A DNA stretch of 42,497 nt from Chloroflexota bacterium (GCA_030550675.1 JAUQOW010000007.1:1-42497); one strand, 5' to 3'; shown: positions 2-10,249, numbered from the stretch's first letter. A program made the numbers and translations. Notes: generated by a model from the letters alone, not told the origin.

Positions 2-31
2 GTTTCAATCCCCTTCATTGCGGGGCTTTTG
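2..31 (-). CRISPR. Probable terminal repeat of a CRISPR array lying left of the window
   Basis: The first bases begin GTTTCAATCCCC and continue to a GCGGGGCTTTTG end, so CCCC and GGGG form the small internal dyad of type I/III repeats. GTTTCAAT is the complement of the ATTGAAAC tag of many crRNAs, which suggests that the array is read on the minus strand, like cas1 and cas2, with this as the leader-proximal repeat. Only one copy is visible, so this is recognition by form and context (cas1, cas2 and RT nearby), not by repetition. Confidence 0.5.
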
Positions 32-148
32 TTTTTTCAGCCTTTCACGACTCTCCTCGCGTTCTGTGGCGTCTGCACGCGCTTAACGCGCTGCGCCGCT
101 GACCGGCTTGCCTGCGCAGTTTTGCAATTCTGGCGAGTGGGACGTATC
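32..148. promoter_or_regulatory. Possible CRISPR leader / divergent promoter region
   Basis: These 117 bases lie between the presumed terminal CRISPR repeat and the chosen start of the WYL gene. If the array is transcribed leftwards, this is where its leader and promoter would be, back to back with the promoter of the WYL gene. A T-rich run directly follows the repeat. I see no convincing -35/-10 pair, so the assignment rests on position alone. Confidence 0.25.
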
Positions 149-2245
149 ATGACGCGGTATAAACAGTATAGCAGGTCTTTGCCGCTGAGGTCAAGCGTGA
201 ATCGTTGGGCTGCACTGCTGGGTGAGATTCCGTCCGAATTGCAGCGCCTGATTGCGCGCACGCAGCGCGTTTCGTTGCCGCGCGCCTGCTCTGCCGCTGA
301 ACGCCTGCGCCGCCTGCGCGCGGCGCTCTGCTCCGCTGCCGCCGTCCGTTCGGTGTATGCGACACTCGACTCCGATACCCGCGCGGCGCTTGATGATCTG
401 CGCCAGCGGCGCGGCGGCATTGCCGCCGATGAACTTGCGCTGCGCTACGGCGTCGTGCGCCCGTTGCGCCAGATGGCGCGCGATCCGCAGCCGCGCTCGG
501 CGGCGGAACGCCTGATCCTGCTTGGATGGCTGCTGCCGCGCCCGTCTGCGCCCCATCCGCCGCAACGCTACCTTCTGGCGCCAGAGGTGCGCCGCTGGCT
601 CCCGCAACCGCTCAATGTTCCCGGTGGGACGCCTGCGCCGCTGGCGCCGCTGCCGCTGGCGCTGCGCGCTACAATTGTGCTGCTCCTCGTCTGCGCTGCC
701 GCGCCGCTGCCGCTGCGTGCCGATGGGACGCTGCGCCGCGCGGCGTTGCGGACGCTGCTGCCGCTGCTGGCGCTCGATACGCTCGACGATGTTGCGGCTG
801 TCTATGCCTTTCTGCTGCCCCACCTGCGCGATTTGGGTCTGGTGACGATGCATCGCGGGCGCTGCGCTGTCACTCCGGCGGTTGCGCCGTTTCTCGCCGC
901 CTCGCTCGAAGAGCAGCAGACGCGTCTGATTGATGCCTGGATTCGCAGCGCAACCCCTGACTCCTGGCTGCAACGCCTGCGTGTGGCGTCTGACGGCATC
1001 GATTGGTCTCTGCTTCGCCGTCGCCTGGTGCAGTGGGTCGAAGCGGCGCCGCCGGGACGCCTGGTGCAGCCGGATCACCTGTGCGCGGCGCTGATCGAGG
1101 CGTTCGGTCCGCTGGCGGACGCGCATACCCATGGGTTTCGCGTGGTGCGCCGCTCTCCCTGGCGTGCGCAGAGCGCCATGCGGGTGCTGCTGACGGCGCT
1201 GCGCGAGCCGCTGCACTGGCTGGGTCTGGTTGCATGGCACGATGGGTGCGCCTACCGTCCGCAGGGATATGCAGCGCTGGCACGCGATTGGCGCTACGGT
1301 GCGGACGGCGAAGTGTTTGTGCCGTTTGGCGGGGTCGATGCTGACGTCCTGCGCCTGGCGCAGGGCGGTCACTGGGTTCGGGGCGATGCGCGAGGGTTGA
1401 CGTGGCGGATGACGCGCATCCCGCGCGCTCGGGAAGAGGAAGTGCGCCAGGTGTTGGTGCGACGCGCCGGGCAGCCGCCGGATTCGTGGAGTGCGCTCTT
1501 CGCTCAAGGAGCGCCGTCGCTGCGGTTGGTGGATGGACCCTTGCTGCTGGCTGATGAGCCTGGAGTCCTGGAGCAGGCGTTGCGCTCGCGGAGTGTGCAA
1601 CGCTATGTGCAGACGCGCCTGGCGCCAGGGATTGCGCTGGTGCGTCCGGAACACGTTGCGGCGCTGCGACGCGCGCTGGCGCGTCAGGGCGTCGCAGTCG
1701 CCGGTCGTGCGGCAATGCCCGCTGCCGCGCCGCCGCTTGAAGGACTGCGCCCTGGCGATTGTGCGTCGTTGCTGGTCGCCTGTGCGTTCTATCGCCGACA
1801 TGCGCCTGCGGGTATGCCCCTGACAATTGATGTAACCCTCGAATCGCAGTTGTGGAGTGCGCTGTCGCCGCCGCTCCGTGATGCCGTCGAAGCAGCGCTG
1901 GCGCACCTTGATGCTCATTCGTGCAGTATTGCAAAACGGACTGACGCTTCCGGGAACGGTCATACCTCTGGCTCGGAATATGTGCTATTCAGCGGATCGA
2001 CACAACAATCCGCCGTGGACGAACGCAATCTGCTGGAAATGTTGCGTCGCGCCATCGCTCAACGCCGCACAGTGACCATCGAGTACGATGCTGGCGGCGA
2101 AGGGCGCGTTGAGCGCCGGACGGTTCGCCCGCTGGAACTGGATCAGCGCAACGATGTCTGGTATCTGCGCGCCTATTGCCTGCGCCGCCGGGCGGAACGG
2201 ACGTTTCGGCTCGATCGAGTGCAGGCGTGGGCGATCTCCCAATAG
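149..2245 (+). CDS. Helicase-C-like / WYL-domain regulatory protein
   Basis: A 698-residue protein with a C-terminal WYL domain over roughly the last 75 residues: a hydrophobic strand ending IEYD, a VRPLEL segment, and WYLRAYC followed by RTFRLDRV. The long Arg/Ala/Leu-rich N-terminal part resembles the helicase C-terminal-like (XPB/Ssl2-like) domain often fused to WYL; that part is assigned from architecture only. WYL proteins bind ligands or nucleic acid and often regulate CRISPR-Cas loci. The gene sits directly beside the presumed CRISPR array and converges on cas2, so a role in controlling or assisting this system is plausible but unproven. The frame stays open upstream to position 29 through a TTG. 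ATG at 149, after a weak GAGTGGGA ribosome site, is preferred because the upstream extension enters the CRISPR repeat. Confidence 0.75.
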   Translation: MTRYKQYSRSLPLRSSVNRWAALLGEIPSELQRLIARTQRVSLPRACSAAERLRRLRAALCSAAAVRSVYATLDSDTRAALDDLRQRRGGIAADELALRYGVVRPLRQMARDPQPRSAAERLILLGWLLPRPSAPHPPQRYLLAPEVRRWLPQPLNVPGGTPAPLAPLPLALRATIVLLLVCAAAPLPLRADGTLRRAALRTLLPLLALDTLDDVAAVYAFLLPHLRDLGLVTMHRGRCAVTPAVAPFLAASLEEQQTRLIDAWIRSATPDSWLQRLRVASDGIDWSLLRRRLVQWVEAAPPGRLVQPDHLCAALIEAFGPLADAHTHGFRVVRRSPWRAQSAMRVLLTALREPLHWLGLVAWHDGCAYRPQGYAALARDWRYGADGEVFVPFGGVDADVLRLAQGGHWVRGDARGLTWRMTRIPRAREEEVRQVLVRRAGQPPDSWSALFAQGAPSLRLVDGPLLLADEPGVLEQALRSRSVQRYVQTRLAPGIALVRPEHVAALRRALARQGVAVAGRAAMPAAAPPLEGLRPGDCASLLVACAFYRRHAPAGMPLTIDVTLESQLWSALSPPLRDAVEAALAHLDAHSCSIAKRTDASGNGHTSGSEYVLFSGSTQQSAVDERNLLEMLRRAIAQRRTVTIEYDAGGEGRVERRTVRPLELDQRNDVWYLRAYCLRRRAERTFRLDRVQAWAISQ

Positions 2246-2409: not shown

Positions 2410-2685
2410 CTAGACGAAGTAGTGGGTCGGGTCGCGGCTGACCACGCCGATGCCGACAATCTGGATGCGCCTGACAGCCGCTTCGTCAAGACGGTAGCAG
2501 CGCACGCTGTCGGTGTTCGGATCGATCAGTTTGCGCACTTCTTGTAGCACTTTTGTGAATGATCGTGCATCCAGGTCGCACTCGAAGACGCTGTACTGCA
2601 CGCGCGTCCCCCACCCTTTCAGGTATTTCATCACCTTCGTGCGCCGCTGGTCGTCAACAATGTCGTAACTGATGATGGTGAACAT
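2410..2685 (-). CDS. cas2: CRISPR-associated endoribonuclease/integration subunit Cas2
   Basis: A 91-residue protein of typical Cas2 length and pattern. It begins with a beta strand MFTIISYDIVDD carrying the conserved Asp at the end of strand 1, then an RR-containing helix, WGTRVQYSVFEC, a helix, and strand VRCYRLDEA. Cas2 is the central dimer of the Cas1-Cas2 spacer integrase; its nuclease residues are not needed for integration in studied systems. A GGAG ribosome site stands 6 bases before the ATG. It is the last gene of the minus-strand row RT-cas1-VWA-cas2 and is nearest to the presumed array. The 177-base gap to the VWA gene is filled by a three-copy tandem repeat. Confidence 0.93.
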   Translation of the reverse strand: MFTIISYDIVDDQRRTKVMKYLKGWGTRVQYSVFECDLDARSFTKVLQEVRKLIDPNTDSVRCYRLDEAAVRRIQIVGIGVVSRDPTHYFV

Positions 2686-2726
2686 AAGCGCTCCATAGTT
2701 GCACTCGATGTTGACCTCGTCTCGCT

Positions 2727-2817
2727 GGCGTTGGCTTCGACCGGCTCAGCCAGCCTGGCGCTGGCTTCGACCGGCTCAGCCAGCCTGGCGTTGGCTGCGA
2801 CCGGCTCAGCCAACGCC
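2727..2817. repeat. Three tandem 30-bp units derived from the GGCTGAGCC hairpin family
   Basis: Three consecutive copies of a 30-bp unit begin at 2727, 2757 and 2787. Each contains GGCTTCGACCGGCTCAGCC (TGCGACC in the third), the complement of the dispersed hairpin core, and they differ at only a few positions. The array fills the gap between the VWA gene and cas2. On the minus strand it lies in the probable intercistronic RNA and can fold. Confidence 0.8.
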
Positions 2818-2862
2818 GGCACAGAATGGTCAACGGGTGGTTCAACGATCTTGAGAACTCCT

Positions 2863-5106
2863 CTAACGCGCGATCAGCGGCAGATGCACCAGAGTGTACG
2901 GGTTGGGATTGGCGGCAATGAAGGTCGAAATCTCCGCCTGGCGCGCAAACGGTTCACCCTGGCTGGTCGATCCGCTCGCAGTCACTGTGAATGTCGCTGT
3001 GCCGGGATCGCGCGGTCCGATCAGCACTGCTGCGTAGACCCCGTCACCCGCCGCGCCATCGCCGTGCAATCCGTCGTCGTGCATCGACACGGTGAACGGC
3101 GTCGTCTGACCGGGGTATTGCACGCTGAGCAGTACGGTTGCGTCGGTTATCGGCGCATCGTCCGCCAGGGTGACGAAGCAGACGATTGGCTCTGTCGTCA
3201 GATACTCGGTTTTGTCGGTGTCAAAGCCGAGCGTCAGATCAGCGCGAGCCGCAGCGCGCACAACGAACGGTTCGTCGGTTGTCGATGCTGATGCACGCTG
3301 GTCTTCAATCACACCCTCGGACAGGGTGACTTCCTCCGAAATAGCGGCTGGCGCAGGCGCTGCACGACTGACACGCATCCGCCACACGCCTGGCGTGAGC
3401 GTCGGGGTGCGTATGCGGTAGTAGGCATACGTGGCGCCAGCGACATACCGGACATCCGGGTTTGTCGCCGGAGTGCCAGGATCGATGCTGAGACCAGACG
3501 GTGTTTGCAGCGTCAGCGTGACCCGCGCACTGGCATTTGCCCAGCTCACCCAGAAGGTTGCTTCTGAAATTGATCGATCAATGGTCACTTCCTGGGTCAC
3601 GACACTGCCAGGCGCTATGCTTCCATTCGCTGTGACCAGCGTCTGGCGGTTGCTGATGGCGCCGGAGATAGTATTGTAGATGCGCATAAGTTGTTCAGGC
3701 GTCGGTGCGTAATTGTAGGTCCCGCCAGTCTGCGCTGCAATCGACAGCATCAACCGTTGATCGGCGTCGCGCCCAAGTCCGATAGTGTGAACTATCGTTT
3801 GCGCATCACGAATCTGCGGTAGAACCTCCCTGACGTAGGGGCGAGTATTCTCCTGTCCATCACTCAAAAGCACAATCGCGCGCGGAAGATCGGGGCTGGC
3901 GTTGTCGAGCAATTGCTGACTGCGCTGCAATCCGCCGCCGATTGATGTACTTCCGCGACTGTTCAGTGTGTCGATGGCGGTCTGCGCTCTGGCGCGCACG
4001 TCGTCCCACGCCGGACCAATAGCAACATCATCGATGTACCACCCGTCGCGGACGCCGAAGGCATCTGTTCTCAATCGGAACCGCACCCGAATTGACTGAC
4101 CGCGATAGGCGTCGAGACTGATGACTTCGCGTCGCCAATGAGAGGCTGTGCCGGAGAAGGATGCCAGGGACTGCCAGGAAACGCCATCGGTGGAAATCAG
4201 AACGTCGCCGCGATCAGACGATGCGATGTCGTAGCGATGCCAGAATATCAGGGCGGGCGCTGTCATCGAGGCGGGAATGGTTACTGGCGTCGCAATAGTG
4301 AGTGTGCTGCTTACGTTATTCGCGTAGTTTCCGGCGGGGCTGTCCGTCCATGCCCGGGCGCTGTTGCGGGCGACCGATGTCAGGCCCCACGGCGGATCCG
4401 CGATCCACTTCTCTGGACCGAATTCCATCCCGTCGTTGAAGAGAAACGCCGATGGCGGCGGCGCATCGAGAATAGGAGTCAGTTCCAGAGGAGTTTCAGC
4501 CCGGTCATCAAAACCTACAATGCCAATGCCGTCCCCGACCTGCATAAGATCGACGAACTGACGCGCCGCGTCGCGCGCTGCCGTCATTTTAGCGGTACCC
4601 ATGCTGCCCGAGCGATCAATCGTCAGAACGATGTTGACATTGTCGACGCCGAAGTACGTAACCGCGTCCGGTTCTCGCACCGTGACGCCCTTGACAGTCA
4701 CTTCGAGGTCGTAGCGCCCTCGCGCAGGTTGCTGCGGCGCCTGCACCTCGATCAGGTAGCGGACAGGAACGAGACTGATGATTGGTGCTGGCCTGCCGCC
4801 GATGGTCACAGTGATGTCCTGTTTCGTGGCATACCCCGGATATGTGAGCTCAATCCTTATTTTCGACGGGCGGAATGGTGATCCGGCGTCGACAGGTCGT
4901 CGCGTCGAAGGGCGCAGAATTCTGAACGCTGGCGGCGTACTGCTCTCAGTCGCGCCTATGACTGGCGAAATAAACGTTGAACGCGACGGCGGCGAAGAAT
5001 AAGATGCCGCACTGTGCGCGCCGCCAGGCACCCATGCCATCCAGACACTGAAGACCCACAATGCCATCACCGCCATGCCCACGCGCATCGACCGAAGGGA
5101 AACCAT
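2863..5106 (-). CDS. Secreted VWA-domain protein with inserted MAM-like domain, between cas1 and cas2
   Basis: A 747-residue exported protein. ATG at 5106 follows a strong AGGAGGAGG ribosome site and gives an N-terminal hydrophobic signal (residues about 8-30). A beta-rich segment precedes a von Willebrand factor A domain whose metal site DRSGS lies at 164-168. After the second VWA strand, roughly 150 residues (about 215-365) interrupt the domain; their LIFWHRYD, VRFRLRTD and GWYIDDVAI motifs resemble the jelly-roll domain of InhA-type secreted proteins. VWA then resumes (TSIGGGLQ, IVLLSDGQENT). The C-terminal part is beta-sandwich-like, with a DDGLHGDGAAGDGVY motif typical of 'choice-of-anchor X' extracellular domains. 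The location between cas1 and cas2 is unusual, because an exported protein has no obvious place in spacer acquisition; it may be a bystander. Confidence 0.85.
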   Translation of the reverse strand: MVSLRSMRVGMAVMALWVFSVWMAWVPGGAHSAASYSSPPSRSTFISPVIGATESSTPPAFRILRPSTRRPVDAGSPFRPSKIRIELTYPGYATKQDITVTIGGRPAPIISLVPVRYLIEVQAPQQPARGRYDLEVTVKGVTVREPDAVTYFGVDNVNIVLTIDRSGSMGTAKMTAARDAARQFVDLMQVGDGIGIVGFDDRAETPLELTPILDAPPPSAFLFNDGMEFGPEKWIADPPWGLTSVARNSARAWTDSPAGNYANNVSSTLTIATPVTIPASMTAPALIFWHRYDIASSDRGDVLISTDGVSWQSLASFSGTASHWRREVISLDAYRGQSIRVRFRLRTDAFGVRDGWYIDDVAIGPAWDDVRARAQTAIDTLNSRGSTSIGGGLQRSQQLLDNASPDLPRAIVLLSDGQENTRPYVREVLPQIRDAQTIVHTIGLGRDADQRLMLSIAAQTGGTYNYAPTPEQLMRIYNTISGAISNRQTLVTANGSIAPGSVVTQEVTIDRSISEATFWVSWANASARVTLTLQTPSGLSIDPGTPATNPDVRYVAGATYAYYRIRTPTLTPGVWRMRVSRAAPAPAAISEEVTLSEGVIEDQRASASTTDEPFVVRAAARADLTLGFDTDKTEYLTTEPIVCFVTLADDAPITDATVLLSVQYPGQTTPFTVSMHDDGLHGDGAAGDGVYAAVLIGPRDPGTATFTVTASGSTSQGEPFARQAEISTFIAANPNPYTLVHLPLIAR

Positions 5107-5218
5107 AGATCGCCTCCTCCTGAGTAATGATGCGATTTCGCCATTCCTCGTAAGGCGGCATCGAGGCGGAGAAGCACGAGGCATCCTCAGCATATCTCAG
5201 AGTCCCGTCACAAATGCA

Positions 5219-6226
5219 TCAATTGCCTGACGTATTCAGACTGAATCCCATATACCGTTCCTGTTCGCCGCGCAGCACGCGCGCCATCGCCTGCGCTTGC
5301 AGCAGGATCACCCGGCGCATTGGCGTCTGTTCGCCGCCTGCCAGTCGCACTTTCGTCTGGAGCAGCGTTTCGTATCGCTGCACCAGGAAGGCGCGCCCTT
5401 CCGCATCGAGATAGACTGCTTCGGGTCGTTCCTGCGGACGGTGGAAGCGTTCGCGCGCGATGGCGTTGGTGCGCACTATGTCGAGCACCATGCGGTCAAC
5501 GATCACCGGGCGGAACTCTTCCAGCAGATCGAGCGCCAGCGATGGACGACCGGCTTCGATGACGTGGAATGTGCCCAGGTAGGGATCGAGACCGGTAATC
5601 TGCACGGCGGTGATGACATCATGCAGCGCCAGGGTGTAGCCGAACGACAGCATGGCGTTGATCGGGTCGGGCGGGGGGTAGAAGGCGCGCCCGCCGAATC
5701 CCCAGGCAGGCGGCAGTGATGCGCGCCAGGCGCCGAAGTAGGCGGCGGCGGCGGCGCCCTCGTGCCCGCGCAACACGTCTACATTCGGCGCCTGAGTCGC
5801 TGCCGTCAACGCCGCGTCGATCTGCGGTAGGGCGGATGCCGCTGCGGGCCAGCCAGCGGCTGCGAGCAAACGGCGCTGGTTGGTCAGTTTGGCGATGACA
5901 ATCGCGCGCGCCAGTTCCAACGCGCGGGACGGGGTGTTGACGTACTGCATCTGGCTGGTGCGCAGATCGCCGAAGCGCGACGGTCCTGCCGTGAGCGTGG
6001 CGTAGTGGCGGCTGCCGTGCTGGTTGGTAAGCGTCACCGGGATGCCGCGTTCGAGCAGATCGATGAGCAGCGCCGTCGACAGTTGCACGCCGCGCCCCAT
6101 GAGCACCACATGGTCGATCTTCGCCAGCGGAACCTCGTGCAGGATCTGTCCGTCTCTGGTCACCAGCGCCTGATTATCACGTTTGCGCACCATTACGCCC
6201 TGTTCCTGGATGTAGAGGGTTGGCAT
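5219..6226 (-). CDS. cas1: CRISPR-associated endonuclease/integrase Cas1
   Basis: A 335-residue Cas1. The N-terminal beta domain (MPTLYIQEQG to about residue 80) leads to an alpha-helical catalytic domain with the expected metal ligands: E156 in RGHEGAAAAAYF, H221 in GTFHVIEAGRPSLA, and the acidic pair at 235-236 in LLEEFRP. Cas1 integrates new spacers with Cas2. The ATG at 6226 follows AAAGGAG at 7 bases; an upstream in-frame extension would run into a hairpin. The gene is downstream of a reverse transcriptase and upstream of the VWA gene and cas2. A palindrome 29-85 bases before the start may affect its expression. Cas1 is not fused to RT here, unlike in many RT-Cas1 systems. Confidence 0.95.
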   Translation of the reverse strand: MPTLYIQEQGVMVRKRDNQALVTRDGQILHEVPLAKIDHVVLMGRGVQLSTALLIDLLERGIPVTLTNQHGSRHYATLTAGPSRFGDLRTSQMQYVNTPSRALELARAIVIAKLTNQRRLLAAAGWPAAASALPQIDAALTAATQAPNVDVLRGHEGAAAAAYFGAWRASLPPAWGFGGRAFYPPPDPINAMLSFGYTLALHDVITAVQITGLDPYLGTFHVIEAGRPSLALDLLEEFRPVIVDRMVLDIVRTNAIARERFHRPQERPEAVYLDAEGRAFLVQRYETLLQTKVRLAGGEQTPMRRVILLQAQAMARVLRGEQERYMGFSLNTSGN

Positions 6227-6254
6227 GTGTTGGCTCCTTTCAGAGATGGTATGT

Positions 6255-6311
6255 CGCCAGGTAGCGACGTTGTATTGCAACGTCGCTACCTGGCAACGTC
6301 GCTACCTGGCG
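6255..6311. repeat. Perfect inverted repeat with a duplicated right arm upstream of cas1
   Basis: GCCAGGTAGCGACGTTG (6256-6272) pairs over 17 bp with CAACGTCGCTACCTGGC (6278-6294) around a 5-base loop. A second copy of the right arm follows at 6294-6311 and pairs with 6255-6272 over 18 bp. Two mutually exclusive hairpins are therefore possible in the RNA just before the cas1 ribosome site. It may be a small dispersed repeat or a regulatory leader. Confidence 0.8.
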
Positions 6312-6334
6312 ATGCACCAGCATCGCGGCGTACC

Positions 6335-6546
6335 CGGTGGCGGGCGACCGCGTGTGGGCGACCCGGCGGGACGCCCCGACGCTGCGGGCAACCCATCGGG
6401 ACGCTCCTACGGGATGGGCGACCTGCCGGGTCGCCCCTACGCTGCGATGGCGCGCGGTGGCGGGTGACGCGGCGGGATGCCCCGACGCTGCGGGCGACCC
6501 ATCGGGACGCTCCTACGGGATGGGCGACCCGGCGGGTCGCCCCTAC
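6335..6546. repeat. Two tandem copies of a ~106-bp GGGCGACC-rich repeat
   Basis: Modules such as GACGCTGCGGGC, CCCATCGGGACGCTCCTACG and GGATGGGCGACC occur in the same order in two copies beginning near 6368 and 6474, with a few substitutions. Both are preceded by a CGGTGGCGGG module. The block fills the gap between the RT stop and cas1. Frames crossing it are repeat-driven and not considered genes. Confidence 0.75.
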
Positions 6547-6555
6547 GTTTCACCT

Positions 6556-7899
6556 TCAACCTTTCTTACGTTCAACCTTCCGTCTTACCCGCTGCCGTGC
6601 GTTGCGGATGGCTTCGCGCAATGCGCGTTCGGCGTCGGCGAAATCAACCAGCCCTTCGCCCAGGCGCGGTCCTCTGGCGCGCGGCGCCAGGGATGCGCCG
6701 AGGAATTCGATCCCGTCGGCGTAGGCGGCGATGCGCGTCTTCTCCGGGTTCAATTCAAGGCGCAGCACGCGCAGTTGCCGCCGCGCAAATTCCAGCGCAC
6801 GCTCCGCTTCGTCCCGCGTCGTGCACATAATCACGAAGTCGTCCATGAAACGCACCATACGGAATCCCTGGCTGGTCATGGCTACATCGAAGGGATGAAG
6901 ATAGATGTTTGCCAGAAGCGGCGAGAGCGCTCCGCCCTGTGGCGTGCCGCGTCCGTGGGTGGTGTGCATGCGCGCCGCTGCTTCGCTCAGCGCCAGCGCG
7001 CCGATTGCCATCGCCCCCGCGACGGCGAGCCGCCGCACGCCAATCCGTTGCAGGTAGGGCAGCGCCTGCCGTGCGCCATCGATCGCCGGTCGCGCCAGCA
7101 TCATCGCTGTCCACAGGTGCGACTCCAGCCCCGGCTGGCGCGCCGTCCAGCCGTCGCCGTCCGCGCTGCCGCCCGGTATTTCCCACACGGCAGCGGCGTA
7201 GGGACCGGCTGGCGGCGGCGGGTGCAGGCGCTCCGCGCCCCAGGCGATCATTCGCCGGAATGCGGCTTCGCCGTGTTGCAGCGGCGTGGCTGGCGCCTCG
7301 TCTGGCAGCGCTGCGTCGCCAGGCAGCATCCCGGCTTCGAGCCATTGCGCAATCAGTTTCAGCACTGGCAGTTCGTCGATGCGCTGCCGCACCAATCCCA
7401 GCAGCACCCGCTGATCGATGCTGTCGAAGTAGCTGGCGATATCTGCGTCAACCACCCACCCCAGCCCCTGATCGGCGTAGCGTTGCACGCGCGCCACCGC
7501 CTCCGGCACGCCGACGTGCGGACGGCAGCCGTAGGAGCAATCCAGGAAACAGGGATCGAACAGCGGGTCGAGCACCTGCTGAACGGCGCGTTGCGCGACC
7601 CGATCCCGTACCGCCAGGATGGCAATGGCGCGTTCGCCGCCGCTTGCCTTGGGAATAGCGACCCGCTTCGCGGGCAGCGGTCGATACGCGCCCTGTTGCA
7701 ATTCATCCGCCAGTTGCGCCATCTGGCGCGCCCAGTCCGCCTCGAAATCGCGCAGCGTCACAGCGTCCGGTCCGGCGCTGCGCCCGCGCCGGGCGACGTG
7801 AATGTTGCTGCGCACCCGCCGCCACGCCAGCGTCAGATTCTCGACGCTGCAGATTCGCGGCAGCAGCGGCGGTCCGTTATAGCGGGGAAAGAGCGGCAT
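6556..7899 (-). CDS. CRISPR-associated group II intron-like reverse transcriptase (stand-alone)
   Basis: A 447-residue reverse transcriptase. Visible blocks: PAKRVAIPKASGGERAIAIL (fingers, 77-96), RDRVAQRAVQQVLDPLFDP, SYGCRPHVG, DADIASYFDSID (catalytic Asp, 151-162), GTPQGGALSPLLANIYL (318-334), FMDD at 351-354 in place of YADD, and LELNPEKTRI with FLGASL. Between the third and fourth RT blocks lie about 120 extra residues (roughly 192-314), Pro/Ala/Trp-rich. There is no maturase X, HNH or intron RNA, so this is a domesticated enzyme. RTs of this type beside Cas1 can allow spacers to be acquired from RNA; here that is inference. ATG at 7899 follows AGGAGGAG. Its stop lies in degenerate heptamer-like sequence. 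Confidence 0.92.
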   Translation of the reverse strand: MPLFPRYNGPPLLPRICSVENLTLAWRRVRSNIHVARRGRSAGPDAVTLRDFEADWARQMAQLADELQQGAYRPLPAKRVAIPKASGGERAIAILAVRDRVAQRAVQQVLDPLFDPCFLDCSYGCRPHVGVPEAVARVQRYADQGLGWVVDADIASYFDSIDQRVLLGLVRQRIDELPVLKLIAQWLEAGMLPGDAALPDEAPATPLQHGEAAFRRMIAWGAERLHPPPPAGPYAAAVWEIPGGSADGDGWTARQPGLESHLWTAMMLARPAIDGARQALPYLQRIGVRRLAVAGAMAIGALALSEAAARMHTTHGRGTPQGGALSPLLANIYLHPFDVAMTSQGFRMVRFMDDFVIMCTTRDEAERALEFARRQLRVLRLELNPEKTRIAAYADGIEFLGASLAPRARGPRLGEGLVDFADAERALREAIRNARQRVRRKVERKKG

Positions 7900-7916
7900 A
7901 CAACTCCTCCTTTCGG

Positions 7917-8131
7917 GTCCAGGCATGAATTGTCAGGCAGCAAGAAAGCGCATGCCTGCCACGCCTTGGCTGGCGACTGAAGTCGCGCCGGGCAGGCGTT
8001 CCGCCGGGCGTCCACCTGCGTGGACGCCGCTGTTCCCGTCCGCGTAGGCGGACGGCTGGCCGCAGGTCCATCAGGGGCGATTTTAATCGCTGGCAACCGG
8101 AGCGTCATTTCCTGACCGTTCATGCCTGCAT
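7917..8131 (+). repeat. Dispersed palindrome-rich repeat, copy A (~215 bp)
   Basis: Shares an ordered series of modules with 20426-20667: GGCATGAAT, TCAGGC-GCAAGAAAGCGCAT, GGCGACTGAAGTCGC, GGGCAGGCG, TGGACGCCG, CCGCAGGTCC, TCAGGGGCGATTT-AATCGC and a final CCTGC. It contains several short palindromes (GCGACTGAAGTCGC, GCGATT-AATCGC) and no plausible gene. It separates the SPFH-like gene from the RT on the minus strand. Confidence 0.8.
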
Positions 8132-8142
8132 CCCCTCCTTTC

Positions 8143-9603
8143 TCACGACTCGACGAACTCCTGTAACGCCCGCAGCCCGGCATCGGCGACTTCGCCCGGA
8201 TTCGCGCCGCTCTCGTCGCCGGTGGCAGTCATCACTGCCGCCGCTGCCGCCGCTGCGATCTGAGCCGTTCCGGCGATCGCCGCCATCTGGCGCTCGTGCT
8301 GGCGTTGTTGCTGGGCGCCAACCTGGATGCGCTCAGTGCGCCATTGCTCGAGCCGCTGCATTTGTTCGGCGACTATCTGTTCGTACCGCAGGTGCAGTTC
8401 CAGCAGATCGCGTTCGTGCGCCGCGCGGCGTTCCGCCTGCGCCTGCGCGTGCGCGGCGCGTTGTTCCGCCAGCCGTTGCTGGATCTCAGCCAGCGCCAGT
8501 GCATGCGCATTCCGCTTTTCTTCGGCAGTCAGCGCCAGTTCGCTTTCGGCGCGCAGCATACCCTGCTGCGCTTCCATCAGACGCAGTTGCTGATCGGTGC
8601 GGTGCGCTTCAAGCAACTGCTGCTGCACGCGCTCCCACTCCGCCTGCAGTCGCGCCTGTTCCGCCTGCCACAGTTGCTCTTCGCGCGCGATCTCGCTGAC
8701 CTGCGCCTGGATCTGCGCCATGACAACCTGCAGCCGCGCGGCAAGCGTCGCTTGCTGCACCTCCGCTTGCTGGACCAGCAGTTTTTCGCGCGCCGCCGCA
8801 GCCACCGACGCCATGCGGATGTCGTGTTCGCGCGCCGCGAGCGCCGCTGCCGCCTCGATCTCCTGCAACCGGGCGCGATGCCGCGCCGCTGCAACCCGCA
8901 ATTCCTCATCAATCTGCGCCGCTGCGACCGTTGCTGCGGTTGCGGCTTCGATCTGTCGTTCGTCGCCCTGCCGGTCGATCACCCGCACGCTGATGACTGT
9001 CAGCCCATCAAGGGCAGGGTCGTTTCGCAGGCGTTCCAGAATGACCGCTGCGGGCGCGTCGAGTCCTCCTTGATCGTCGGAAGCGCCGGTGAGCGCCGCG
9101 TGGGTCTGCTGTTCGATACAGCGCAGCGCGCCATTGCGCACCGCCGCTGCCAGTGTCGTGAGCGGCTCGCGGTGCGCGGCAATCTTCAGCGGATCGTTCA
9201 CCTCGACATCCGCGGCAAGCCACAGACGGACGCGCCATTTGTCGCGGCTCCATCCCTCGACCGGTCCGACGGTTATCTGGCGCCGACGCACGTCGACCCA
9301 CTGCACCAGCGCGGCGCCCGGCTGCATGCCGACCAGCGTGTAACTGCCGGGCTGATAGGTGCGCCGCTCTCCGCCGGGAAGGTGGGTCACCGCCACGGTT
9401 CCCGGCGGCACAACCAGATGCGCCGCCAGCCCGAACGCCCGGCGCGGCAGCGCGCGCGGCGCCGTCGCCAGCCCGGTGACGAAGTGGAGACTCGCCAGCG
9501 GTGCGCCATTCATGGCATCCGCTTCGCCTTTCAGTACCGCGATCCCCTCGCTGACCGCCTCGCCGACCTTCTCCTGCACCGCTGAAATGACCTCGGCGTT
9601 CAT
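8143..9603 (-). CDS. SPFH/band-7-like protein with long coiled coil
   Basis: A 486-residue protein. Residues about 40-215 resemble an SPFH/prohibitin-homology region: VVPPGTVAVTHLPGGERRTY, PGSYTLVG, VRLWLAADVEVNDPLK, a helix ending in an AAVRNGALRCIEQQ-type segment, and LTVISVRVIDRQGDERQ. Residues about 220-440 form a near-continuous Glu/Gln/Arg/Ala coiled coil, followed by a short Ala-rich helix. No N-terminal membrane anchor is evident. ATG at 9603 is chosen because the GAGGAG ribosome site lies inside the longer frame. It starts 14 bases after the RNase H-like gene ends, so the two are probably co-transcribed. Function is unknown; SPFH proteins commonly scaffold membrane-associated complexes. 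Whether it belongs with the RT-cas1 genes 244 bases downstream is open. Confidence 0.7.
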   Translation of the reverse strand: MNAEVISAVQEKVGEAVSEGIAVLKGEADAMNGAPLASLHFVTGLATAPRALPRRAFGLAAHLVVPPGTVAVTHLPGGERRTYQPGSYTLVGMQPGAALVQWVDVRRRQITVGPVEGWSRDKWRVRLWLAADVEVNDPLKIAAHREPLTTLAAAVRNGALRCIEQQTHAALTGASDDQGGLDAPAAVILERLRNDPALDGLTVISVRVIDRQGDERQIEAATAATVAAAQIDEELRVAAARHRARLQEIEAAAALAAREHDIRMASVAAAAREKLLVQQAEVQQATLAARLQVVMAQIQAQVSEIAREEQLWQAEQARLQAEWERVQQQLLEAHRTDQQLRLMEAQQGMLRAESELALTAEEKRNAHALALAEIQQRLAEQRAAHAQAQAERRAAHERDLLELHLRYEQIVAEQMQRLEQWRTERIQVGAQQQRQHERQMAAIAGTAQIAAAAAAAVMTATGDESGANPGEVADAGLRALQEFVES

Positions 9604-9617
9604 GCTGCTCTCCTCTT

Positions 9618-10064
9618 TCACATTGCGTGACGACCATTGACCACGCGCGCCAGCCAGCCGCGACCGTCGAGCGCCTCCCAGGCGAGCGCGTCCGCCAGGC
9701 GGTTGAGTTCGCGCGGGATGGCAAGGAAGGTGATGCGACCATGCTGACGAACGAGTTCCTGCGCGCGCGCGTGCAGCGGTTGAAGCACAGCGGCGCGCAC
9801 CGCGTGGCGACCTGCCAGTTGGTCGACCACAATCCGGCTGTCTGTCAGGCAGCGCACGGTGGCGCCGGGGTACCGCCGGATCACAAATATCAGTCCAGCG
9901 ATGACCGCCTGATACTCGGCTTCGTTATTGGTCATCGCCGGAGCGCGTTCGCACGACCATGCCAGCACCGCGCCAGCCGCGTTGCGGACGACGATCCCCA
10001 GCCCGGCAATGCCGCGCGGCGGTGCGCCGGGCGTGCCATCGACCTGTAACAGCAACGGAGTCAC
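9618..10064 (-). CDS. Ribonuclease HI-like protein
   Basis: A 148-residue RNase HI-fold protein with all four acidic metal ligands visible: D9 in LLLQVDG, E48 in TNNEAEYQAVIAGL, D75 in CLTDSRIVVDQLAG and D125 in RELNRLADALA. It lacks the basic protrusion, as in the short RnhA-like family of bacteria and archaea. RNase HI enzymes cut RNA in RNA-DNA hybrids. The start is GTG at 10064, 7 bases after AGGAGG, overlapping the TGA of the upstream membrane peptide (GTGA), so the two are translationally coupled. It is upstream of the SPFH-like gene and on the same strand as RT and cas1; an RNase H would fit a reverse-transcription pathway, but this link is only suggested by position. Confidence 0.85.
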   Translation of the reverse strand: MTPLLLQVDGTPGAPPRGIAGLGIVVRNAAGAVLAWSCERAPAMTNNEAEYQAVIAGLIFVIRRYPGATVRCLTDSRIVVDQLAGRHAVRAAVLQPLHARAQELVRQHGRITFLAIPRELNRLADALAWEALDGRGWLARVVNGRHAM

Positions 10065-10249
10065 GACAGCGCCTCCTGCAACAGGACTGCCAGCCCCATC
10101 AACGTAACAGCAATCAGCGCTAGCGCCGTCGCCGCGCAACTGCGCACCACGCGCCCCGGACGGAGCAGGGCGATCCGCGGCGGCGCAAGCAGCGCCGCCA
10201 GCGCCAGCGCCACCGCCAGGCAGGCAGGAATCATCAGACACCACACCAT
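10061..10249 (-). CDS. Small two-helix membrane protein
   Basis: A 62-residue peptide with two hydrophobic stretches (about 5-24 and 38-58) separated by an Arg-containing loop. It is considered real because AAAGGAG stands 8 bases before its ATG and its TGA overlaps the GTG of the RNase HI-like gene, a coupling that is unlikely by chance. It is the first gene of the row membrane peptide - RNase H-like - SPFH-like. No family was recognised. Confidence 0.6.
   Translation of the reverse strand: MVWCLMIPACLAVALALAALLAPPRIALLRPGRVVRSCAATALALIAVTLMGLAVLLQEALS

Follow-up and report, generated by a model that had tools for sequence, protein, structure and literature searches.

An RNase HI gene as a very probable dedicated component of the RT-Cas1-Cas2 spacer-acquisition module in Chloroflexota

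The window analyzed here is a stretch of 42,497 nucleotides from a Chloroflexota bacterium (GCA_030550675.1 JAUQOW010000007.1:1-42497), which carries between positions 2,410 and 10,249 a row of genes with a ribonuclease HI (RNase H) upstream of a stand-alone reverse transcriptase (RT) and the genes cas1 and cas2 of CRISPR (clustered regularly interspaced short palindromic repeats) spacer acquisition. An earlier note, made from the sequence alone, had placed a membrane peptide, RNase HI, an SPFH-like protein, RT, Cas1, a VWA protein and Cas2 in this order on one strand. The same order was recovered on the minus strand, with the families assigned by Pfam and the SPFH protein by its predicted fold:

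10061..10249, minus strand: small hydrophobic peptide of 62 amino acids, first gene of the row, no family match
9618..10064, minus strand: RNase HI of the RVT_3 family, 148 codons with a GTG start, numbered here as the 147-amino-acid protein P0001
8143..9606, minus strand: SPFH-domain protein with a long coiled coil, ATG start at 9606, assigned by AlphaFold2 (AF2) model and Foldseek
6556..7899, minus strand: stand-alone group II intron-like RT of about 447 amino acids, RVT_1 E 1.5e-28, FMDD motif intact
5219..6226, minus strand: Cas1, PF01867 E 1.2e-79, TIGR00287
2863..5193, minus strand: VWA-domain protein between cas1 and cas2, VWA E 1.3e-13
2410..2685, minus strand: Cas2, PF09827 E 9.2e-25

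The gene coordinates noted before could be retained apart from some starts, which were corrected to GTG at 10064 for RNase H, ATG at 7899 instead of 7926 for RT and ATG at 6226 instead of TTG at 6280 for Cas1. The revised starts of RT and Cas1 are the most likely ones, because they agree with the starts of homologues and with ribosome-binding sites. The stop codon of the peptide gene and the start of the RNase H gene share the bases GTGA, and 11 bases separate the RNase H from the SPFH gene.

The RNase H protein matches the family RVT_3 (PF13456) with an E-value of 1.8e-17 and 63.8 bits versus a cut-off of 21.6, and among solved proteins the closest in sequence is the Rv2228c RNase H domain (phmmer E 1.8e-16). 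All four acidic ligands that had been claimed are present in the alignment, namely D8, E49, D74 and D124 in the 147-amino-acid numbering, and these DEDD residues are kept in the complete linked copies, i.e. the homologues of the order as well as the Anaerolineae copies. The AF2 model (pLDDT 92.5) superimposes on 4e19 with a VIA Z of 21.0 and a root-mean-square deviation of 1.9 over 132 residues, and on 4h8k, which was solved with an RNA/DNA hybrid, with a VIA Z of 20.2. The RNase HI structures that match the model, which include LC11-RNase H1 in complex with an RNA/DNA hybrid, score Z 19-21, and the RNase H domains of human immunodeficiency virus (HIV) and foamy virus share the fold more weakly. 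Judged from these residues, the enzyme is apparently catalytically intact, and it would be expected to cut the RNA in RNA:DNA hybrids. A second RVT_3 gene was not found in the genome of the window; however, an RNase HII is present there, hence the cell has an RNase H besides the linked one.

The suspected association of this gene with RT and Cas1 clearly exceeds chance, with almost no exception, two gene orders and more than one class of Chloroflexota involved. In a sample of 400 Chloroflexota genomes, in which an RT locus was taken as orthologous at a score of at least 320 bits, 23 RT loci were found in 22 genomes, and in 23/23 RNase H is encoded on the RT strand no more than 3 kb away. A scan of Chloroflexota contigs with an RT profile gave RNase H at each of the 30 loci in which the RT frame is complete and the flanking sequence suffices, the loci L102, L126 and L163 being left out because their contigs end too early to judge. 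Among 40 relatives, the RNase H orthologue adjoins RT in every genome with an orthologous RT, cut contigs excepted (G002, where the locus is split between contigs, and G007, where RT stands at the contig end and no RNase H was found). The trio of peptide, RNase H and SPFH protein was not seen conserved apart from RT or cas genes, and none of these 40 relatives has an intact RNase H or SPFH orthologue away from RT. Within the order, both RNase H and RT are intact in 19 genomes, both are absent or broken in 21 and a mixed state occurs in 0 (Fisher p 7.6e-12, a value that ignores phylogeny, the genomes being related and the counts not independent events). The negatives sit inside genera that also hold positives (g1, g11, g12, g16, g17 and g19), which points to several separate joint losses. 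Chloroflexales-type loci were also met on L105 and L120, whose labels are Chromatiaceae and Gracilibacteria, respectively; these are probably mis-binned Chloroflexales contigs and not cases of spread to other phyla, in the case of L105 because it matches L107 from Chloroflexaceae.

Remnants of such losses can still be read in some genomes. In G005, a single deletion fuses codon ~32 of the RNase H gene to the VWA gene, SPFH, RT and Cas1 are gone, and the array has shrunk to one good repeat and a few degenerate copies. In G396, the deletion that removed RT has brought RNase H codon ~69 up against Cas1 codon ~136. The RNase H gene carries two stops in G038 and is truncated in G037, both of which are without RT. 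Gene-joining deletions with chimeric or abutting frames are located at 11772-12937 in L094 (G005), 2958-4072 in L252 (G396) and 6866-7699 in L136, the joined pairs being RNase H-VWA, RNase H-Cas1 and RT-Cas1.

The linked RNase H genes also form a lineage of their own. In an unrooted tree with some long branches, 98/96 support separates the full set of 36 linked copies from 20 unlinked RVT_3 genes of the phylum, for which neither RT nor Cas1 was met in the surrounding sequence read, and the 24 Chloroflexales copies fall into one group at 100/99. The distances among the RNase H proteins correlate with those of RT (r 0.91) and Cas1 (r 0.88). A general role of RNase H at RT-Cas1 loci was considered and had to be rejected: among 88 proteins around ten RT-Cas1 loci from elsewhere (Acidobacteria, Bipolaricaulota, Armatimonadetes and others), no RVT_3 or other RNase H family was among the first 25 families listed, below which a weak match might lie, and a profile of the linked RNase H found no match in these loci either. 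Hence, the partner is a feature of the Chloroflexota lineage and not a property of RT-CRISPR at large.

Gene order ties RNase H closely to its neighbors. In Chloroflexales and several Anaerolineae it is located 5' of RT, either directly (4-30 bases apart or overlapping), across a gap, or separated from it by the SPFH gene; for example, the RNase H stop precedes the RT start by 4-8 nucleotides in L110, L112, L116 and L125, and both genes overlap in L120. Overlaps between the peptide and RNase H genes (GTGA or ATGA) occur in six loci. In the Anaerolineae loci L129, L144, L151 and L178, RNase H is placed between cas1 and cas2, the distance from the RNase H stop to the ATG of cas2 being 4 nucleotides in L144 and 1 nucleotide in L151. 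The loci L144 (2703-4377) and L151 (5695-6894 and 9241-9873) harbor in addition a predicted GTPase before RT and a small predicted membrane protein, the latter before RT in L144 and behind cas1 in L151; both have RNase H between cas1 and cas2.

The flanks of the row and its two long gaps contain the following features:

29..2245, plus strand: WYL-domain protein (PF13280), likely a regulator, convergent with cas2, place conserved
2..38, minus strand: lone CRISPR repeat of the DR10 type with a diverged tail (Rfam RF01323, 47.9 bits), at the contig edge
7900..8142, minus strand: gap between SPFH and RT, with GC-rich repeats and a ribosome-binding site before RT
6227..6555, minus strand: gap between RT and Cas1, with tandem and inverted repeats throughout

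The array presumed beside the row is not contained in the window, where the terminal repeat at 2-38 is the single copy, and further copies of the DR10-type repeat were not found in the assembly of the window. In relatives, full arrays adjoin the same genes. The complete relative G003 (5,801,598 bp) possesses an array of about 31 repeats there, and arrays adjoin the same genes also in G026, G027 and G034. Neither the 30-base tandem repeats at 2725-2814 nor the repeats at 6343-6547 were accepted as CRISPR arrays, as spacers are absent between the copies or the repeats are GC-rich and palindromic. An effector was not found inside the window. In G009, G026, G032, G124 and G398, a Cas10 gene shares the contig with the module at a distance of about 10 kb, with an effector of type III-D in G009 and G032 (Csx10, Csx19, Csx7), of type III-B in G026 (Cmr2, Cmr3, RAMPs), and with Cas10 and RAMPs on the module's contig in G398; L151 likewise has a type III-B effector, the module row continuing into the cmr genes. 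Of the features of an RT-CRISPR module, the group II intron-like RT with FMDD is present, the succession RT-cas1-cas2 recurs across the order, and the linkage to type III was found in relatives, not in the window itself.

The remaining genes of the row differ in how faithfully they accompany RNase H. The SPFH-like coiled-coil protein of the earlier note is borne out by its predicted fold, an SPFH domain followed by a coiled coil: the best solved matches in Foldseek are stomatin, HflK/C and flotillin, the SPFH domain reaching a TM score of 0.79 to that of mouse stomatin, and no Pfam or NCBIfam model detects the protein. Its orthologues among the 40 relatives occur only in RT-CRISPR loci, and the gene is inverted in two Chloroploca loci, L110 and L125. 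Homologues of the peptide occupy the same place in G001-G004, G009 and G026. Within the trio, the peptide and SPFH genes are optional and RNase H is nearly constant. The VWA gene was examined as a part of the module and rejected, as it was found only in the window's own genus, and its protein is probably outside the module; it is a large protein (2863-5193) with an additional MAM-like part and an apparent signal or membrane segment, seen in Roseiflexus-like genomes only.

The gaps of 244 bases between SPFH and RT and of 330 bases between RT and Cas1, described before as filled with repeats, hold with the revised starts. A scan of the SPFH-RT gap gave one promoter-like site, at chance level, and one weak terminator-like site. 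Intergenic repeats of the types GGCTTCGACCGGCTCAGCC and GGGCGACCCGGCGGG are found in the window at 2283-2310, 2725-2814 and 6247-6547 and also in L084 at 8498-8966; in G003, a different repeat array occupies the same RT-Cas1 gap. The Chloroflexales RTs (in the window at 6556-7899) show in the alignment an insertion of about 110-130 amino acids between the two RVT_1 halves, including the conserved stretch LWTAMMLARPAIDGAR. The RTs of L144 and L151 are shorter (328-335 amino acids) and lack this RVT_1-splitting insertion.

Our analysis indicates that RNase H is very probably a dedicated part of spacer acquisition in Chloroflexota, belonging to the RT-Cas1-Cas2 module found alongside type III CRISPR-Cas. 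This membership is supported by the identity of the genes and their conserved active sites, by co-inheritance and joint loss, by the dedicated RNase H lineage and by gene order, as well as by the linkage to arrays and, in several genomes, to type III effectors. In such a module, the stand-alone RT would copy short invader transcripts into complementary DNA (cDNA), RNase H would digest the RNA strand of the RNA:cDNA hybrid, the freed cDNA would then either enter second-strand synthesis by RT or a host polymerase or be used directly, and Cas1-Cas2 would insert the resulting DNA into the array. As a whole, the best explanation of the locus is in our estimation, with a probability of about two in three, that the dedicated RNase H digests the RNA strand so that the cDNA can go to Cas1-Cas2, and the removal of RNA from the RNA:cDNA hybrid is likewise the likely action of the enzyme itself. 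We infer both RNA as the source of spacers in the Chloroflexota clade and the point of the pathway at which RNase H would act. It might equally be true or not that RT, RNase H, Cas1 and Cas2 represent a self-contained pathway from RNA to double-stranded DNA, in which RNA degradation and second-strand synthesis precede integration. The co-inheritance with RNase H suggests that these bacteria carry a complete kit of their own for turning RNA into DNA memory.

Published work on RT-CRISPR bears on this explanation from both sides. CRISPR RTs are able to initiate cDNA synthesis on RNA and to supply Cas1-Cas2 with DNA prespacers, and one study of the Marinomonas system reported that RNA itself integrates very inefficiently without DNA synthesis (PMC10415136). 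Several points weigh against this explanation. In Marinomonas, RT-Cas1 can do without RNase H, as 3'-DNA-tailed RNA or an RNA/cDNA duplex is integrated directly, and the authors of that work regarded a route via RNase H and second-strand synthesis as possible but less likely for Marinomonas (PMC11014452). That other lineages have RT-Cas1 loci with no RNase H linked to them indicates that the enzyme is not needed in principle. Finally, four RT loci in Chloroflexota are without RNase H; their RT is frameshifted in L122, part of an RT-Cas1 fusion by internal deletion in L136 and cut by the contig end in L127 and L128. For the alternative with RNase H and second-strand synthesis, the natural candidate is a lineage in which RNase H is dedicated to the module.

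RNase H could also act after integration, in that Cas1-Cas2 inserts RNA or an RNA/cDNA duplex, from which RNase H strips the RNA before a polymerase fills in the DNA. The direct integration of both substrates demonstrated for Marinomonas RT-Cas1 (PMC11014452) speaks for such a sequence of events, and the position of RNase H between cas1 and cas2 in L129, L144, L151 and L178 is compatible with either order of steps. However, gap filling and repair in Marinomonas were proposed to proceed via host enzymes with no linked RNase H needed, other RT-Cas1 lineages also do without it, and the very inefficient integration of RNA in the absence of DNA synthesis (PMC10415136) counts against it; we therefore consider this possibility unlikely.

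Still more doubtful is a clean-up function off the spacer path, by which RNase H would curb the harm of stray RT activity or degrade hybrids and primers for RT turnover. It would agree with the observations that RNase H nearly always accompanies RT and is lost jointly with it, and that the link is to RT above the cas genes generally, the sole RVT_3 gene of the genome sitting here despite other cas1 loci. Nevertheless, in the four loci just named RNase H lies beside cas2 and not beside RT, which points to the integration step, and an RNase HII is already available in the cell. A role in interference, with RNase H cutting the RNA in target hybrids during type III attack, is very improbable: type III operons do share the contig in several genomes, but RNase H is embedded in the RT-cas1-cas2 row with the effector operon typically about 10 kb off, and G005 lost RNase H together with RT yet keeps its Cas10 genes. 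That a housekeeping RNase HI hitch-hikes in a defence island by coincidence is hardly credible. The RVT_3 family is indeed common (216/400 Chloroflexota genomes at E <= 0.001), but the unlinked copies are a separate lineage with RT or Cas1 nearby in 0/20 of those read, and RNase H accompanies RT almost without exception, in two arrangements of the genes, and is lost jointly with it. For a 4-Mb genome, a first-order estimate puts the chance that one RVT_3 gene falls no more than 5 kb from a given locus at about 0.1-0.3 percent.

RT-CRISPR biology has yet to settle how RNA-derived spacers shed their RNA: the best-studied system is without a linked RNase H, and a path through RNase H and second-strand synthesis has been put forward only as a possibility. 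The Chloroflexota lineage offers a natural system for a direct test of this RNA-removal question. If RT, RNase H, Cas1 and Cas2 do form a self-contained pathway from RNA to double-stranded DNA, the mechanism would be unlike the direct RNA integration of Marinomonas, and RNase H would be a new gene of the adaptation module. It would extend the CRISPR adaptation toolbox by one gene and might provide thermophilic parts for the recording of transcripts. An earlier report of an association between RNase H and RT-CRISPR was not found in the literature searched, and an earlier mention is possible.

The components of the locus resemble several known systems. RNase HI enzymes of the RVT_3 kind, such as the Rv2228c domain, Sulfolobus tokodaii ST0753, LC11-RNase H1 and Halobacterium RNase H1, are alike in sequence, fold and DEDD residues. 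To our knowledge these enzymes have no tie to CRISPR loci, and the RNase H of the window differs from them in that its lineage stands apart and accompanies RT-CRISPR loci. By analogy, the locus may be likened to a retroviral RT with its RNase H domain, since in both one genetic unit would supply polymerase and RNase H. The retroviral RT does so in a single chain, the locus by separate genes; its RT is of the group II intron-like kind, and the product would be a CRISPR array instead of a provirus. The DUF3800 nuclease with an RNase H fold in some VI-F and V-A2 loci is likewise an accessory in CRISPR loci, but it belongs to another family and to other CRISPR types, and RT is not mentioned alongside it (PMC12669027). 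The survey of Toro et al. (2017) describes in its main text an RT-CRISPR clade 9 from Chloroflexi with RT separate from Cas1 and without an assigned effector (PMC5541045). The likeness to the window covers the phylum and the stand-alone RT beside cas1. The main text of the survey does not mention a linked RNase H (PMC5541045), whereas here RNase H is near-constant and III-B or III-D effectors occur on the same contigs. Finally, the Cas6-RT-Cas1/Cas2 system of Marinomonas mediterranea (type III-B) shares RT, Cas1-Cas2 and the linkage to type III, and RNA-derived spacers have been shown there. It differs in that RT is fused to Cas1, a linked RNase H is not described, and 3'-dN-tailed RNA or RNA/cDNA duplexes can be integrated directly (PMC11014452).

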